A stretch of 64,000 nucleotides of DNA from Diplolepis rosae (Eukaryota; Arthropoda; Insecta; Hymenoptera; Diplolepididae), in contig JAPYXD010000744.1 in assembly GCA_030998225.1 (NCBI GenBank), positions 1,240,001 to 1,304,000 of the forward strand. Direction: 5' to 3'. The first letter of the stretch is position 1. The number at the start of each line of letters is the position of its first letter. The notes under the pieces were generated by a model. It did no database searches, was not told the DNA's origin, and saw only the letters and a list, made by a program, of their open reading frames with translations. Positions 661-58,955 of the stretch are shown in pieces. A program made the position numbers and the translations under genes.

Positions 661-845
661 TATTATACGATAAGTTTGTTTAATTCAAATAAACCCTTTT
701 CTCGGTGTAATTCAACCAATTAATTTGTTTCATGCAACCAAAGAAGGCTTGTTTGTATATTATTTGGTTAAATCAAATACATATTTCAATTGATTCAGCT
801 AAATTTGGGTTGATTCATCAAAATGGTTTAGTTAGACCTTAGGTT
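661..845. repeat. Outer palindromic-array element, left part
   Basis: Degenerate array of AACCAAA/TTTGGTT and ATTTGATT-like words, including 'ttggttaaatcaaat' and 'gggttgattcatc'. It resumes at 3563-3778 in the same style, ending 'aaatattttcctgagttt'. The 846-3562 element appears to have inserted into it, leaving TT on both sides. Its own left end is not clean. Confidence 0.55.
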
Positions 846-1190
846 CACTGAGAAAAATGTCTGGTTGACCGAACAAAAGTTTGGTAGACCCAACCAAATT
901 TTTTGGTTGCTATAGAAGCAACAAAATTGTTTTGTTGAGCTAACCAAATTACTTTGTTGGAGCGTTTGGTTGGACCAACCAAAAAGTTTGGTAAGCACAA
1001 CAAAATTTTTTTGTAGATTAAATGACCTTATTTGGTTGAGTTAACGTGATATTTGTTAGCTCAACACAATAATTTTTCAAACTGATCAAAACTTTTGTAG
1101 TTTCTACAAGATAGTTTTGTTGAAGCAATAGAATTTTTATTTTGAAGCAACAGTTACTTTGTTGAGGGAAAAATTTATTTTGTAAATGAA
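846..1190. repeat. Left palindromic-word array
   Basis: Words such as 'ggttgacc', 'cccaaccaaa', 'ttttggttg', 'tttggttggaccaaccaaa' and 'acaaaattttttttgt'-type inversions recur every 20-30 bp with little exact sequence identity. This forms the left end of the gene-carrying element. Confidence 0.7.
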
Positions 1191-1605
1191 ATATAAAATA
1201 TTTTGTATATGGAAAAAAACCGAGAGGGACAAAATGGATTGATTTAATAAAATGTGTTTTATTTGTAGAAATGTTGTTTAATTAATCATAATTAAATTTC
1301 GGAATACGGATGATTAGATGAAATTGTGATTAATTAAGAGATTTGTCTTAAAATAAAATTCACTTTAATTAACTAATGAAATCTTCGTCCTTCTATAGCT
1401 TTTGTCCCATACAGAAAATATTCTAATTTATTTAAACATCAAAATAAAGGAGTTATCGCCTTAAATTAAGAAGTTACAGTTATTTATAATTACGTTAGTG
1501 TCTATTATAATTATACGTATTGGAAAGTGTAATAATAACATACAGAGTGTAGAGAAAACATGATTATTTATTTTGTGAAATATATCAGACTTTATAACGC
1601 ACACA

Positions 1606-3198
1606 TTAGTACCAAGTTACGAATGCATCCCCATTTACATTATAAAGAATACATGAAGTTTTAACACAACGCAAACTTTCGTAGAACAAACACAGTTCAC
1701 AAATTTTTTTGGCTACAATTTCACAATGAAAGTTTTTGAATTGAAATCTGAAACATGTTTATCAACCTTCAGAATATGCACAACAAATTATACGAATTAA
1801 TATTGTATTAATATTATTAATATTTAAATTCTTACGGCTGACCGAAGGGATCGGTAAAACACAACAAATGTGAAACGATAATGTCTACTATCGAACTTTG
1901 ATCCGAATCAGATAATTCTTCTTTTTTGTCAGATACATTTAGGATAACTCTTCCTTTGAATGTGTCAAATAAAATTTGATAAAAGTCCTTGAATAAAAAA
2001 GATAAAATAATATTTTACCAGTAATTTTTCCTTTCTCCCTGTATTAAAAAAAAATTATCTTCTTAATGTTAATCAATGAATAATTTAATTTCTTTTTTAA
2101 GGTTCAATATATTACCAAAGATGGTAGATTGTCGAAAAATTCTTTTTTCGTTAAAGATGTCTCTTCAGTCTGTGGTTCCACATTTTCTTTATTTATTTCA
2201 AGCAAATTTTCTCCAGAAGTATCATTAAATGTTGCAATAATTTCATTCTGTGGTACATTAAAATTTTAATTAGTCCTGTCTATTTTTATTTTTTAACATC
2301 TAAAGCCAGTTGTCTTATTTTATTTTTTATTTTATGAATCTCTCAAAAATAAGATATAGGAAGAAGCATGCAATCCCAAAATGACAAGAAATTACATACC
2401 TCACTGTTTGTGGACTTATTTGCGATTCTTTCCCCTAATTTCTTATCTTTCGAATAATTGCTGGGCTTACTGGTCTCATTAGTGGATTCAATTGTGACAG
2501 ATTTAAGAGGAACTTGAGGTGTTTCATTAGATACATAATTATTCAAGTTGCGTTCAAATTTAATTTGAACACCCAACAACTCATTTTTCAAAAGTTTCTG
2601 CACAAAATTACTGCCCGGTACAAGAGCATTTAATGCTTCTAAACCAATTCCTTCAGCTAAAAATTAAGAATTGTATACTTTATTCGTGTGAAATTCATTC
2701 ATATTTTCCAGTTTTACGATGGCCATATTTCCATTACGATATTATTATTACGACTGATATATATTTATACAATATTATATCACAAAAAGTAATAAAATAA
2801 TAATAGACAAAACGAAAAATACTTAATGCAGTCTTTTAAAAATTTGATTTAAAAAAATCCTATTTTCAATTTATTTATAACGTCCATGAAAAATTATAGT
2901 AATTCTGAAGTCAATCTTGACCTTGAAGCGTCTATAAGTAATACATATTCTCACTTCCCATGTGAATAATCTAACCTACACTTTAAAGATATTTATCTTG
3001 TATACTACATTTAATTTAACGAAAAAATAAAGGTAAAAAAAATAAGGTGTTTGCGATATTACTTTAAAGTGTGTTGTTAGAATTTGAGAGATTAAATAAC
3101 ACGAATAAAATGTACCGAAATCACTTACCTGGAAATGTATCTATCAGAGATCCTAGGCCCCATTCCTCTAAAATCTGTTGTGTTTCAACGTCAGCCAT
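1606..3198 (-). CDS. SAM-domain-like protein, five exons, inside a CACTGAG-ended element
   Basis: Exons on the - strand: 3129-3198, 2400-2656, 2116-2247, 1836-1987 and 1606-1747. All four introns (472, 152, 128 and 88 bp) are GT-AG, and phases join cleanly (1, 0, 0, 2). The 250-residue product starts MADVETQQILEEWGLGSLID. Residues ~7-55 resemble a SAM domain (ILEEWGLGSLIDTF, then EGIGLEALNAL). A polar linker of ~100 residues follows (~56-153). Residues ~154-250 hold GRVILNV, SSIVDIIVSHLL and EIVAKKICELC, resembling the C-terminal half of uncharacterised multi-copy insect SAM proteins (recalled, not searched). The last ~25 residues before the TAA look unlike that family, so this copy may be truncated or decaying. 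Start: first in-frame ATG, with stop-free splicing throughout. Biochemical function is unknown; a role in mobility of the enclosing element is speculation. Confidence 0.72.
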
Positions 3199-3364
3199 CC
3201 TTTTCGAAACACATATACAACTCTTAGTTTAACTTTATTTTCTTTAAAACAACAAATAATACTAACCACCTAAATGTAAATAAGTGATTTTAGCTCGAAT
3301 CCACCATATTGAAAACAAAAGCAACGAGCGTTCCTCATGAATCGAAAGAGAGCTCTTGCGCGGA

Positions 3365-3562
3365 TGTGTGTTTGGTATGCCCAACAAAATTCTTTGATAT
3401 ACACTCAACAAAAAGGGCTTAACAAAATTTTTTGTTTAAGCCAAACAAACTTTTTTGTAACTTCAACTACTTTTTTGGTCGTCGCAACCAAATTTTGGTT
3501 AGAACAACCAAAACTGATCAACAAAATTATTTTGTAGCTGTGACATTATTTTTTTCTCAGTG
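3365..3562. repeat. Right palindromic-word array
   Basis: Array of 'caacaaaatt', 'aaattttttgttt', 'caaccaaattttggtt' and 'caacaaaattattttgt' words ending TTTTTTTCTCAGTG. It is the counterpart of the 846-1190 array. The open frame at 3337-3537 is a by-product of these words and not a gene. Confidence 0.68.
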
Positions 3563-3778
3563 TTAAGTCAAGCCAAATTTCGTTAAATCAACCAAGATTT
3601 GATTGAATCAACTTGAATAATTGTTTAATTCAATCAAATCGCATAAAAACAGTACATCTTTGTTTGTATAAAACAAAGTCATTGATTGAATCAATTACAA
3701 ATTTAGTCGCACGTGTGACAAGCAAATCCTTTGGTCTATCATACTAAATTTTGGTTGGATTAACTAAATATTTTCCTG
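3563..3778. repeat. Outer palindromic-array element, right part
   Basis: Continuation of the 661-845 array with 'gccaaatttcgttaaatcaacc', 'gatttgattgaatcaac' and 'ttttggttggattaac'. It ends near 'tattttcctgagt', a weak version of the CTGAGTG-type terminus. Confidence 0.5.
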
Positions 3779-3784
3779 AGTTTA

Positions 3785-5040
3785 ATATCCTATGCGCTAT
3801 TTCATGGTTCGTAATATTTGAAAATCTTTTCATATACTTATTGAAATAATAAAATTCATTTAAAAAGCTCCCCTATATTCCCGAGTTTCAAGAAATATTT
3901 TTTTAAATCCCATAAGTTTTAAGGAATCTCTCCTACAACATACGGTTCAGGAAAATTTCCTGAAATTTTAGTAAAAATACATTATATGAACAAAATATGG
4001 GATAATTTTAAACAAATTTTAGGAAAGTTTTCAAAAATTTCAAATTAGAAAATGAAATTCTATTAATTAGATAATAAAATTCAAAACGTGAGAAAAAGAC
4101 ATGTTATCTTTGATTCGACTCTGCCGACATTTTTTGGGCCATAGACCCATGTTATTAGCTCTCAACATTGCACTCATGGCGCAATTAATGTCACTGACAT
4201 CTTAATTTTTAAAGAAGAAATCCACATGTGAAATATAAGCGTTAGTATGGAATGTAAAAGACTATTGCCAAAAAAATCGCAAGTTTATATTCGCATCAAG
4301 GTTAAGAAATAAATAATAGATGTCACCAATTTGAAACTTAACTTTATAGTTGACAGTTAACGATCTATAGATTCCTGTAATAATGTTTTTATGACATTAC
4401 CTTCCCCATAAAATGGTTCTGTCAAGTATTTTTGGCTAACAGTCGATATTATATAAGACTACAATTTCCAAAAGTCTAACCGCCATCTAGCAAACAAAAC
4501 AGGTAAAAAAATCATCATCCTGAGCCTAGCAGCTATGAAATAACGCTAAAAAATGTATAAAGTAAGCATTTTTGCCAACTTTTATGTTTATTTTTTATTT
4601 TTTTATACCGTCTGATCTCAAAAGGCTTTTCTGCAGCGAAAAGTCACAGCTGAAGCTGAAGGCTATTTCCAACGTGGTTTTATAGTTATGGATGCGCAAT
4701 ATAGGCATAAAGCCATTAGGAAAGGAAGCAACATCGTGTTGTTCAATACCCTGGCCAACAACACAATGAGATTTTTCAAGATTTTGGGCAATTCTTAATG
4801 TCCCTGAAGAATCTTAGAATTTTATTGCTGCTCCTCTTTTGCCAAAGTGCAACGAACGACGAACTAGCCTCTCTGTAAGAATTATGCAATTTTCAAGGTA
4901 TACGTTTGCCAGTCTATGGTTGAAAATTGTAAATATTACTTTAAATTTTAAATTGCGAGTATGGATGGATTGGCCATGGATCAATCAATACAGCTGACTA
5001 ATTCAATAAAATCAGTTAAATCAGTTTCCCCCAAGATTTC
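3785..5040. other. Unassigned DNA
   Basis: AT-rich. No supported gene, tRNA or clean element ends were found. The short frames here lack any motif. Confidence 0.4.
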
Positions 5041-8564: not shown

Positions 8565-9475
8565 CACGGAGAAAAATGGATATTGACCCATAATATCTAG
8601 ATATTGAGGCACAATGTCAGTAGCATTCAACTATGTGACAAACATTTAGATATTCTACTTGAATGCCTGCAGATATTGAAAAAAAGATATTAACCACCAG
8701 TATCTCAGATATTGAGCTTGATTATCTAAGATATTAAGAATGAATATTCAAGATACTAAACTTCTGAATATCCTCGTTAGTAAACTTGAATGTCTGAGGT
8801 ACTAGAGTTGAATATCTCAGATATTTAACATCAATATCAGGTATACTGAAAAGGTAAGTTATAGATGTTACAGCTCAATGTCTAAGATACTCAAAAAATT
8901 ATTTTAAAGGTTATAAAATAACTACATATTCATTTTTTAGAAAAAAGTCAAATTATATTTTATTATTTTCTTTTCTATAAAAGTAATGCAGATGTTTGAA
9001 CCAAATTTTCATTATCTGGCATGTCTAAAATTAATTTAATGTTCTTGTTAGAAACTTAACCTCAACACTAAGGTTAGAATTCATTCTCGGCTATAAACCA
9101 GATATAGAGAAAAAACATAACTTATATGTTTTACTTACTGCATCTCAAGTTAAAGATCCGATCACTTTTATTCCATTAGAAATACTTATTAGAATTTAAG
9201 GAAATTTATCTTTCCGGAACGCTGCAAGCATGTCAATCTTAGATTCACTTAGATTTCGATGAGAGCGAAAAAGTGATCACATGACCTTTATATATATGCG
9301 CGCGCACTTCATGCTTCAATATCTAAACTATTGAATCTGAATATCAAATGTTACTTCTCGGCAAAATCTTATATATTGAAAAAAAAAATTTTAATATTGC
9401 GTGTCAATATCTAGATATTATGGATGAATATCTCCTATTTGAATATCTACTTTTCAATATCCATTTTTCTCCGTG
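8565..9475. mobile_element. 911-bp CACGGAG-ended element with TATCTNAGATATT word array
   Basis: CACGGAGAAAAATGGATATT at the left and its complement ending 'ctccgtg' at the right, flanked by TA (8563-8564, 9476-9477). Both ends carry arrays of 'tatctagatattga', 'tatctcagatattga' and 'tatctaagatatta' words. The ~400-bp middle (8890-9300) has no open frame of note. Confidence 0.85.
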
Positions 9476-29130: not shown

Positions 29131-30370
29131 TTGATGTTGAATAGTTATCCTAAAAATTTCATAAACAAACATATCAAAAACAGGATTTTCCAATTAAAAA
29201 ATAAAGATAGAAATTCCTTTTTCATTCCGACGAATAATGAAAGAGAAATAGACTATAAGCGTGTAATTTCTATTCCTTATTATGGAAATTTATCTTGTAA
29301 AATTAAAAGACAACTGAAAGAATACAACATAACCACTGTTTCCAGAAACATTTCAAAATTAGATAAATACATAAAATTAGGGAAAGACCCTTTGAATAAA
29401 TCTGAAATTTCAAATGCAGTTTATCAAATTCCATGCTTGGATTGCACTGAGAAAACTGGAGTGTCAAACTTTGAGTGTCAAAATGTAGATAGTCAGTCTG
29501 AACTTCTAGATAGTACAACACTCTTTCCGAAATTTTTTCTTTTTGGTCAGGGAGACACTCATTTGATATTCTGCTTAACTGTTACCAGTGTCAGAATCAC
29601 TATAAAGAGTGTCGATTGGCGAAATACGCGCCAAAATTGTAAAGTCACGTGGGTTCGCCTATTTTTCCTCCAATATCACCAGCGTGGACTCTAACCTCAT
29701 TGCCGGTTTCGCGTCCTTTACGTGTTAAAGTGTCACGAGGGTTATTTTTGCCAACTAATTGACGAGTACCTATTTCACTTGCTATAATAACATAATAATT
29801 GTGAAAGCTTAAATGTAATAGTTTTGAGGTTAGCCATAGAGGTAGATTATAGTATATTTTTCATTCTTCGATAATCTATTTTTCTCTCTGCGATGATCAA
29901 CTTTTCCCTCTAAAGTATTCGAGTTGACCATCTTATTTTGACAATTCACAGGTAATAAGTTACACTATTAGAAGGCTGTCCTATAGTTTAACCTCAAATA
30001 TAGTCTGCTTCACCCTCCAAATGTTTAGGTTGACACTCCAGTTTTCTCAGTGTGTTCAAAAACCTATGTAGGTCAAACGGGAAGAATGCTTTTTGTCAGA
30101 TGTGATGAACACAAAAAAAACATTAATTTAAATGAAAAATATCACAATGTTGTTACAAAACATAGAATAAACAATAAGAATGATACAGGTTCTCAACATA
30201 ATTTTGATTGGGACAATGTTGAAATTTTACATAAAGAAACAAATTATTTCAAAAGAATGATTGCAGAAATGTTTTACATAAAAAAGGAAGGAAATAATAG
30301 CATTAATTTGATGTCTGACTTAAAAGATTACAATGCTTCTTATGATATTATTTTAGATCACCTCGCATAA
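29131..30370 (+). pseudogene. Penelope-like retroelement C-terminus with GIY-YIG endonuclease, interrupted
   Basis: Only the C-terminal part remains: 29131-29444 and 30053-30370. The first part has SIPYYGNLSCKIKRQLKEY and a linker ending in a Cys pair (PCLDC), typical before the endonuclease. The second begins SKTYVGQTGR with R and EHKK following, a GIY-YIG-type nuclease (the Y-V-G variant), and ends at a TAA. The two parts are in register once the 608-bp insertion and one TG are removed. Reverse transcriptase sequence upstream is absent (in-frame stop at 29122-29124), so the element is 5'-truncated. Known role of the family: target-site cleavage and reverse transcription of retroelement RNA. 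Inactive here. Confidence 0.85.
29445..30052. mobile_element. 608-bp CACTGAG-ended element inside the Penelope-like frame
   Basis: CACTGAGAAAACTGGAGTG...CACTCCAGTTTTCTCAGTG, flanked by TG (29443-29444, 30053-30054). The reading frame of the interrupted retroelement shows TG is the duplicated target. The middle lacks an open frame. Its ends match those of the TA- and TT-flanked elements. Confidence 0.88.
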
Positions 30371-39005: not shown

Positions 39006-40148
39006 CACGGAGAAACTCTTCATTGCAAAATTTAGTATTATTATATTTATTTTTACTAAAAGTCAATAGGAAACGAGGATATAACGTCACTTTTTTAGAA
39101 ATTACTATTTTAAGTATTTAACTATGGAGTTACTAATAATATTGGAGAAAATGGTGATATAATTGTATTTATGCCTAAAAACAAAAGCAAATTTTATTAC
39201 TTGAAATAGTAAAATCGTAATCGACACATCGAACGAATTATATTGAAGTAAACCCAATAAATGTTTCATTAATTGCTAAAAAAGAACGTTAAGTTTACAA
39301 AAGACAATAGTAAAGTCACATCTTCTGTCTAACCGAATTACCATAGTCTTTTGGGGATAGTGGAACCATATTTATAACTTTTCCTATCGAAAATAGGAAA
39401 TAATTGCACCTCCATGATATAAAAAAATCAGTCATTCGTAAATTTTACCATATTTCTTATTAGATTTTGTGGGCTACATAGAGAGAGTATTTATAAACAT
39501 AGTTACATATTTACATACACGTATATATATATATCAATATAAATAATAAACATACCAATGCACGATCAAATACTAATTCAACGCAACTTAACCTAACTGC
39601 ACAACGCACACATTCATAAACGCATCGCAGTGATATGTCAATATTGTCAATTACAATGTAGCAACTTCATTATATACTGAACTGTGGAAACTTTTATGAT
39701 TTGTGAGGAAAAGCTCGGTAGTCCCTCTGCTAGATTCTCGGGTAATATCAGAAAAGTTCGGCGTATCTGACGTCACTCTGCAGTACATTTAATATTTCCA
39801 ATGGGAATTTTGACAACGTACTATTCCAATATACGATGTATTCGATTGCAAAATATTCAAGTCTTTCTCTCTTCATTGTTCATTACTATTGACATTGGTA
39901 ATTTCTCTAAACTATTTTGCAATTTATATTATTCAAAAGACCAATTCTTGCATAGATAGTTTTACTTTTTATTTATATATAGGTATCACTTATTTCTAGT
40001 TTCAATTTCCCATCAAAGATATTAATCTTTGCAACTCTCAATGGTAATTTATAAAGTTGCACTATATTTACAATTGGTTCAGGAAATGTATTTCCTCCTA
40101 CTGCTATGGTAAATAAAACTAGATTTTACAATGAAAAGTTTCTCCGTG
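39006..40148. mobile_element. 1143-bp CACGGAG-ended element
   Basis: CACGGAGAAACTCTTCATTG...CAATGAAAAGTTTCTCCGTG, flanked by TA (39004-39005, 40149-40150). 'ttactattttaagtat' and 'taaatttagtatta'-type words near the ends. The middle has short AT microsatellite (39521-39532) and no open frame. Confidence 0.82.
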
Positions 40149-41361: not shown

Positions 41362-42483
41362 CACTGAGAAAAACGGATCATAAAACCTGGATGTTAAAAG
41401 TAAGGATAGTATTCGGTAACATAAAATATGTTAAAGTGTATGATCTATAATCTTTATCTAATATATAAGGATATTAATAAACATAATCTCCAGATGTTAC
41501 ATTCTTATAATCTTCAGAAAATAATTCGTAACATCTGCAGATAATAAACCTACACTGAGAAACTTTTCGCTAGAGTAAATGATAAGATTGAATGAAGGTT
41601 TAGTACAATAGTGTTTTAAAATGAGGAAACCCGAGGTTTTATTACATTTATTCATATTATGGCATCGAAATTCAATATAGTCATAACAGTCTTTAAAACG
41701 TGTAGAAGAGAAATTAGTATTTTAAATACCAAATATTATGAATCTCCATTCGAAAAATAAAGAGTACTAAAAAATGATATTATGATTACTAAGTGTTCTA
41801 AAAATAAATTTAATAAGTCGAACAATGAATATTATAACCTAGAAACCACATTTGAAAAATTCATATTGTGAATATGATCTTGCCACAAACCTTGTGACGA
41901 GCAGCAAAAATCAAAACATTCATTCTCGGTTTTTCGTATAATTCGTTTCAGAATGTCGTCCGAGTGCTCCCGACGTTATCCGAATAGCTTCTTAGACTCG
42001 AATCCAAGTCTGGCCAACTCAGTAGTGGCTTATAAGCGACATTTATTTCGTAATATGGCAAGCGAGAATAGCCGAGAGGCTTTAGGCGTTAGGAATGCGT
42101 TTAGTTAATGTAGATATAGGTAGAGTTAGAGGGTTCGAACCCAAAAGCGAATTTTGAAATTTAATTTCAAGCTTATGCGATTATAAATAGTGTAGCATTG
42201 TGTACTTAAAAAAGGTATGATAATAATATTTTTGTATGTGTTCCCACTGAAAACTCCCCTCTTCTGAGTGCCAAAGCTCTCCCCTCTATCTTCCTTTTGT
42301 TTTGCACGCGTTAAATCTGGTATGTTTCAGTTTATAATCCAAGATATTATCCGATACTATCTTTTTTTTAACATCTACAGATTATGGTTTTAATAATCTA
42401 GATCGCTGTCCCATAGTTAATAGTCCAAGATTATACCCGATAACATATTTTTCATTACCGTTTACAATCCATTTTTCTCAGTG
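41362..42483. mobile_element. CACTGAG-ended array element with ATAATCTAGATTAT-type word
   Basis: Left CACTGAGAAAAACGGATCAT, right 'ttacaatccatttttctcagtg'. Flanks TT and TA do not match, so the two ends may belong to different insertions. Words 'tatgatctataatctttat', 'taataatctagatcgc' and 'agtccaagattatac'. A second CACTGAG terminus at 41553 (TA before it) starts another element whose far end was not found. Carries a tRNA-like segment. Confidence 0.6.
42062..42150 (+). repeat. tRNA-like (SINE-type) segment
   Basis: 'aatagccgagaggctttagg' as A box and GGTTCGAACCC at 42132-42142 as B box, with a long stretch between them as in Ser/Leu tRNAs. No closed acceptor stem. Sequence differs from the segment carried in the 1525-bp element. 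Confidence 0.65.
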
Positions 42484-58769: not shown

Positions 58770-58955
58770 CACTGAGAAAAAATGCTATTGAATCAAAAGC
58801 ATTTCTTTCCAAAAGCGTGTATTTCATGGATTCAAATCAATATGCCATAGAATTAGTAACATATTTATTGGTTCTTGTAGTATATTTTTATGAATTAATA
58901 GTATACATGCTTTTGGAAAGAAATGCTTTTGATTCAATAGCATTTTTTCTCAGTG
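58770..58955. mobile_element. 186-bp CACTGAG-ended fold-back MITE
   Basis: CACTGAGAAAAAATGCTATT...AATAGCATTTTTTCTCAGTG flanked by TA (58768-58769, 58956-58957). Arms of ~60 bp pair ('caaaagcatttctttcc' against 'ggaaagaaatgcttttg'). Sister copy at 62928-63109. Confidence 0.9.

Follow-up and report, generated by a model that had tools for sequence, protein, structure and literature searches.

We analysed a 64,000-nucleotide stretch of the Diplolepis rosae genome (contig JAPYXD010000744.1, positions 1,240,001 to 1,304,000, forward strand; the window), which carries at 846-3562 a 2.7-kb element with a gene for a SAM-domain protein. It is very probable that this element is a non-autonomous, internally deleted derivative of a 7.1-kb, two-gene cut-and-paste transposon of the CMC (CACTA/EnSpm-Mirage-Chapaev) clade, a reading built on the architecture, the deletion, the duplications and the motif order demonstrated below. 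The window copy itself is ordinary; the two-gene parent class is a new variant within a known transposon clade.

The parent is represented by L009, a 7.1-kb copy that matches both halves of the short element. At the deletion junction (1692..1693, element position 847; overlap about 1 bp) L009 carries an extra 4387 bp, and on the gene strand this DNA holds the rest of SAM-gene exon 5, four further exons to a stop, and then a transposase gene. As spliced, with junctions placed by eye, the L009 SAM gene has 9 exons and encodes 538 residues; the transposase gene encodes two C2H2 fingers, and its last 28 residues are the end of the window gene. On this comparison the window gene is evidently a head-to-tail fusion of the SAM gene and the transposase produced by one deletion. 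An earlier note on this DNA had remarked that there is no transposase inside 846-3562, which is true because that part was deleted. L010 and L011 have a different deletion, with about 5 bp shared at the junction (by eye). A public ENA protein, P0001, matches 68% of the length of the L009 transposase at 99% identity, and the element or its host is therefore present in another public data set.

The ends of the short element are an exact 12-bp inverted repeat, CACTGAGAAAAA, at 846..857 (plus strand) and 3551..3562 (minus strand), with the TT target-site duplication on the outer sides at 844..845 and 3563..3564. With at most one mismatch allowed, the window contains 20 occurrences of CACTGAGAAAAA where 0.76 would be expected, and 0 of 100 shuffles reached 20. 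Subterminal arrays of palindromic words (TTTGGT/ACCAAA and TTTTGTT/AACAAAA) occupy 858..1170 on the left and 3361..3550 on the right: 13 words fall in 846-1170 and 10 in 3361-3562, only 2 lie across the 2190-bp interior, and 0 of 300 dinucleotide shuffles matched the word count of either end; because the words were picked after the finding had been read, this count is a check and no blind discovery. The CACTGAG termini, TT flanks and terminal arrays described in the earlier note were thus all borne out. Both flanks (694-845 and 3563-3790) carry AATCAACC/TTGATT-type words of their own and end-like motifs (TTTTCTCGGTG at 697-707; partly by eye), and from these the short element may be nested in an older related copy.

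The short element is mobile. A nucleotide search of the genome (757.7 Mb; 104 match rows, 40 of 294 candidates scored) placed it, counting from match rows, at no fewer than 35 sites, which is a lower bound because of the share of candidates scored, and we examined the copies at 22 of these 35 places (20 fetched, plus L002 and the window copy). L010, L011, L013 and L025, for which no right end was located, were left out of the duplication count; among the other 18, in which both ends were located, 16 are flanked by a 2-bp duplication (13 TA, 2 TT, one of them the window copy, and 1 TG), and in 0 of 18 does it extend to 3 bp. The multi-copy mobile element with array ends that the earlier note had proposed is therefore real, and a partial run of the check that it had named, for a single-copy gene or for copies never bordered by arrays, found the gene to be multi-copy and its copies to share the array ends.

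A genome search with the L009 transposase (80 match rows, with 79 candidates scored out of 798) led to 30 loci, of which L043 and L046 overlap one stretch, with transposases at 30-43% amino acid identity to that of L009. The parent transposase is about 815-830 residues long, and in two families, A (L031/32/33/47) and B (L035/37/38/39/40/41/45), the frames, of about 830 residues, are mostly open and within-family identity is at least 99.6%. Family A was delimited at both ends and family B right of the transposase only. The family A element measures 7084 bp (C373:344860-351943), ends in CACTGAGAGAAA and TTCTCTCCGTG and has an AA duplication, and its sister on C73 has a TA duplication; the array word TTGTTTGA/TCAAACAA occurs 10 and 5 times at its ends and 0 times in the 6150 bp between, and a SAM-like N-terminus that an intron interrupts can be read by eye. 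The family B element ends right of the transposase in ...TTTCTGAGTG, adjoining its own palindromic word. The right parts of L063 and L064 gave no support for short derivatives of family A that keep SAM exons: these 98% copies match family A from roughly its 2.0-2.2 kb point up to the right end, and lack about 77 bp near the transposase start. At G000:C176:58306-63071 two 5' ends of the family A type point in opposite directions, with about 1.2 kb between them.

In the transposase alignment, with gaps set aside, the CMC-type catalytic motif is present as D299 (26/26), D389 (25/26) and E635 (23/24), accompanied by C409 and C412 (26/26) and H611 and H615 (24/24); the motif definition applied to these residues is that given in a section of PMC12730594. 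Profile matches were weak, with Transposase_21 in 5 of 26 transposases (best E 9e-4), Plavaka in 2 (best 0.0019, under the Pfam cut-off for L031) and DUF4218 in 1 (4.4e-5), and a Pfam search of L009 pieces returned nothing above the cut-offs. The predicted structure of the core has the RAG1/Transib core fold among the matches listed, at about 11-12% sequence identity to RAG1. A PDB sequence search with the whole transposase alignment returned zinc-finger chains only among the matches listed (60 of 132), and one with the tail returned only RBM22 (E 0.27 and 1.6); a BAH-like tail is possible. Ends of the CA..TG type, with duplications of a length within the 2-5 bp of the CMC clade, are found both in the window family (2 bp) and in family A (AA and TA). 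Motifs, ends and duplications place the element in the CMC clade, and its preference for TA could suit Mirage or ESTA. The earlier note's suggestion of an undescribed element class gained no support, because the motif order is that of CACTA/EnSpm-Mirage-Chapaev-Transib and there are weak similarities to Transposase_21, DUF4218 and Plavaka.

Of the 30 loci, 27 have exon 9 of the SAM gene upstream of the transposase and in the same orientation, so that the SAM-type gene, in its full-length version, belongs to the element as the earlier note had supposed. Homologues of its protein are unannotated genes in Athalia, Solenopsis, Monomorium, Leptopilina, Linepithema and the aphid Macrosiphum. In a model of the homologue P0032 (mean predicted local distance difference test score, pLDDT, 72.3; N-terminus 84-91) we found an N-terminal five-helix SAM fold, nearest in structure comparison to the SAMs of BICC1, Shank and tankyrase, which form polymers. 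The comparison with BICC1 gave probability 1.00, a target template modelling score (TM) of 0.79 and a root-mean-square deviation of 1.3, but an E value of 0.48; the structure search with P0032 gave no match at E 0.001, and P0031 matched SAM_1 at E 0.0019, under the cut-off. Eight pairs were tested for the ratio of replacement to silent substitution rates (dN/dS). L035/L050, the sole pair with ratios for both genes, had a ratio of 0.08 in SAM exons 7-9 (126 codons) and one of 0.10 in the transposase, rough values because dS exceeds 2; L048/L057 gave 0.27 for SAM exon 9, and silent sites were saturated in L052/L056, L052/L054 and L031/L035, leaving no SAM ratio. Selection on the SAM gene is supported, but more thinly than the architecture, the deletion, the duplications and the motif order.

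The SAM gene might instead be a passenger or a captured host gene, dispensable for movement. Homologues annotated as uncharacterised genes in ants, a sawfly, Leptopilina and an aphid would favour this, as would the other N-terminal domains borne by P0033 (Leptopilina) and by P0034 and P0035 (Linepithema), which are longer host-gene annotations with an extra Pfam domain (PF05485, PF02755) and possibly gene-model fusions or cases of domestication. However, the SAM gene adjoins the transposase in nearly all loci across families of such low identity, and the two genes have similarly low dN/dS in the one between-family pair that gave both ratios; we therefore consider a dispensable SAM gene improbable, if still worth keeping in mind.

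The window gene has five minus-strand exons in a splice-consistent reading: exon 1 at 3129..3198 (with the start codon and the SAM domain's first half), exon 2 at 2400..2656 (second half), exon 3 at 2116..2247, exon 4 at 1836..1987 and exon 5 at 1606..1747, whose 5' part comes from the beginning of SAM-gene exon 5 and whose 3' part (1609-1692) encodes the 28 transposase residues. With four GT-AG introns and 250 residues before a stop, it joins the first SAM exons in frame to the transposase end, and the exons and coordinates agree with those in the earlier note. Among the 22 copies examined this gene is intact in the window copy only. Fourteen share frame-breaking damage, namely the loss of 35 nt near the 5' end of exon 2 (confirmed base by base in 5 of the 14, with the exon-2 acceptor retained) and of about 80 bp that include the exon-3 donor (2059..2138, by copy alignment). 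Private substitutions, a measure biased low for copies with a sister copy in the sample, amount to 0-0.72% in exons and 0-0.64% in introns of these 14 majority copies, to 0.53% and 1.67% in the window copy and to 2.33% and 1.84% in L002, from which the 14 frame-broken copies appear to be the youngest.

It is conceivable that the 250-residue fusion is functional, as a repressor of the parent transposase like KP or as a factor favouring amplification of the short form. In the window copy the fusion is in frame with every splice site kept, and substitutions private to the window copy are scarcer in its exons (4/753) than in its introns (14/839), with a Fisher p of 0.034, or of 0.049 when the rest of the element is added to the introns, although no correction was applied to this single test, made on a copy selected for its open frame. 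Against a functional fusion, the copies with the shared damage are those with the fewest private changes, and a short form encoding a maintained protein, as in the KP case, is not what we see with 1 of 22 intact. The 250-residue fusion is probably non-functional on this comparison of copies, and we give a functional one very little credence. The earlier note had proposed the SAM-like protein as a possible mobility or host-interaction factor; a mobility role is unlikely for the 250-residue protein because it is intact in so few copies, and the full-length SAM protein may be the mobility factor.

The 2.7-kb element as the ancestral form, with the transposase inserted later by gene capture, is scarcely credible, for although 2.7-kb copies greatly outnumber 7.1-kb ones in the window family, this reading was rejected, together with the earlier note's view of the short element as the complete form, because the extra DNA of L009 completes two genes that the short form cuts mid-exon, and distant families in the genome have the identical two-gene order.

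In the deletion-derivative reading that we favour, the parent carries two genes on one strand, with the SAM-domain protein gene upstream and, downstream, that of a transposase combining two C2H2 fingers with a predicted DDE core of the RAG1/Transib type and possibly a BAH-like tail. Its zinc fingers would recognise the subterminal arrays, and it would cut at CAC/GTG and favour TA targets. The SAM partner would self-associate and help to bring the ends together, as TnpA does in maize Spm, and we infer for it an accessory role in holding the element ends together. The 250-residue fusion would be an accidental outcome of the deletion, and the short copy would be mobilised in trans.

Several observations weigh against this account. 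The transposase gene of L009 is split over three frames and the left end of L009 reads TACTGAG, not CACTGAG; L030, the next best copy, has 4 stops in the matched stretch; L042, L043 and L046 are partial; and no intact transposase of the L009 type, a candidate mover of the short copies, was found among the scored genome matches. Two of the 18 copies with both ends located, L012 and L018, have no duplication, and the SAM exon is missing at 3 of the 30 transposase loci (L044, L046 and L053). In close pairs the dN/dS of the SAM gene is weaker evidence of selection (0.58 for L009/L042 and 0.23 for L009/L043), and L009/L030 differ by 5 replacement and 0 silent changes in it. The deficit of window-only changes in exons given above counts on the same side.

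For some of the multi-copy, unannotated SAM-type genes of insects there is now a possible explanation, namely that CACTA-like transposons carry them as their second gene. If transposition does need the SAM partner, this would be a RAG-fold system with a different partner, and the two-gene system is directly testable because family copies at least 99.6% identical have open transposase frames. We tentatively raise, as a doubtful possibility, a diverse and recently active insect lineage with an obligate pair of a RAG1-fold transposase (zinc fingers and a BAH-type chromatin reader) and a self-assembling SAM partner that bridges the palindromic terminal arrays, parallel to RAG1-RAG2. The window copy is also a caution for gene annotation, a single deletion having yielded a tidy-looking fusion gene without evident function.

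Shorter elements with matching termini are present in the window, as the earlier note had reported: four have ends matching at 12/12, reading CACTGAG or CACGGAG, and a 2-bp duplication, at 8565-9475 (TA), 29445-30052 (TG), 39006-40148 (TA; alternative left end 35747) and 58770-58955 (TA; alternative right end 63785), and a fifth, at 41553-42483 (TA), has ends matching at 10 of 12. A 607-bp stretch within L015 starts and finishes like the element at 29445-30052, and the family of the latter therefore also moves. Among the copies of the 2.7-kb element, L012 holds a nested mariner-like element and L014 a nested LINE-like (long interspersed nuclear element) one (translated open reading frames, by eye), and L013 (C195:4529852-4538500) is a broken copy followed by a retroelement-like stretch.

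Compared with known systems, the element shares with maize Spm its subterminal repeat arrays, two proteins and abundant internal-deletion derivatives, but TnpA and TnpD are splice products of a single Spm gene, whereas here there are two separate genes. The KP derivative of the P element encodes an intact repressor, unlike the copies here, 21 of 22 of which do not encode the 250-residue protein. Transib duplications are 5 bp long. The element differs from RAG1/RAG2, ProtoRAG and Transib in its 2-bp duplications, in having a SAM partner rather than RAG2 and in its low identity to RAG1, and we have not filed it as Transib because the duplications are 2 bp and reach 3 bp in none of the 18 copies.

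Among animal TRC elements, SmTRC1 is described, in the part of PMC1636069 drawn on here, as cut-and-paste, with Transposase_21 similarity, 2-bp direct repeats and ends starting with CCC. The present element resembles it, on the same part of that source, in its Transposase_21 similarity, 2-bp end repeats, more than one protein product and truncated copies (transcribed in SmTRC1), and differs in that its ends start with CAC and that SmTRC1 uses alternative splicing, not a separate SAM-domain gene (PMC1636069). We did not file it as TRC because the ends are not CCC, the window family having CACTGAG and family A CACTGAG/CACGGAG; a section of PMC4298943 describes another CCC-ended animal family with 2-bp duplications. 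Neither a SAM-domain gene tied to EnSpm/CACTA elements nor a BAH domain tied to an EnSpm/CACTA-type transposase was found among the papers listed in searches of the open-licence PMC literature, a weak absence because it covers that literature only. Repbase now files Mirage and Chapaev under EnSpm, according to a passage of PMC4455052, and SAM-partnered elements may therefore sit unremarked among its EnSpm entries.
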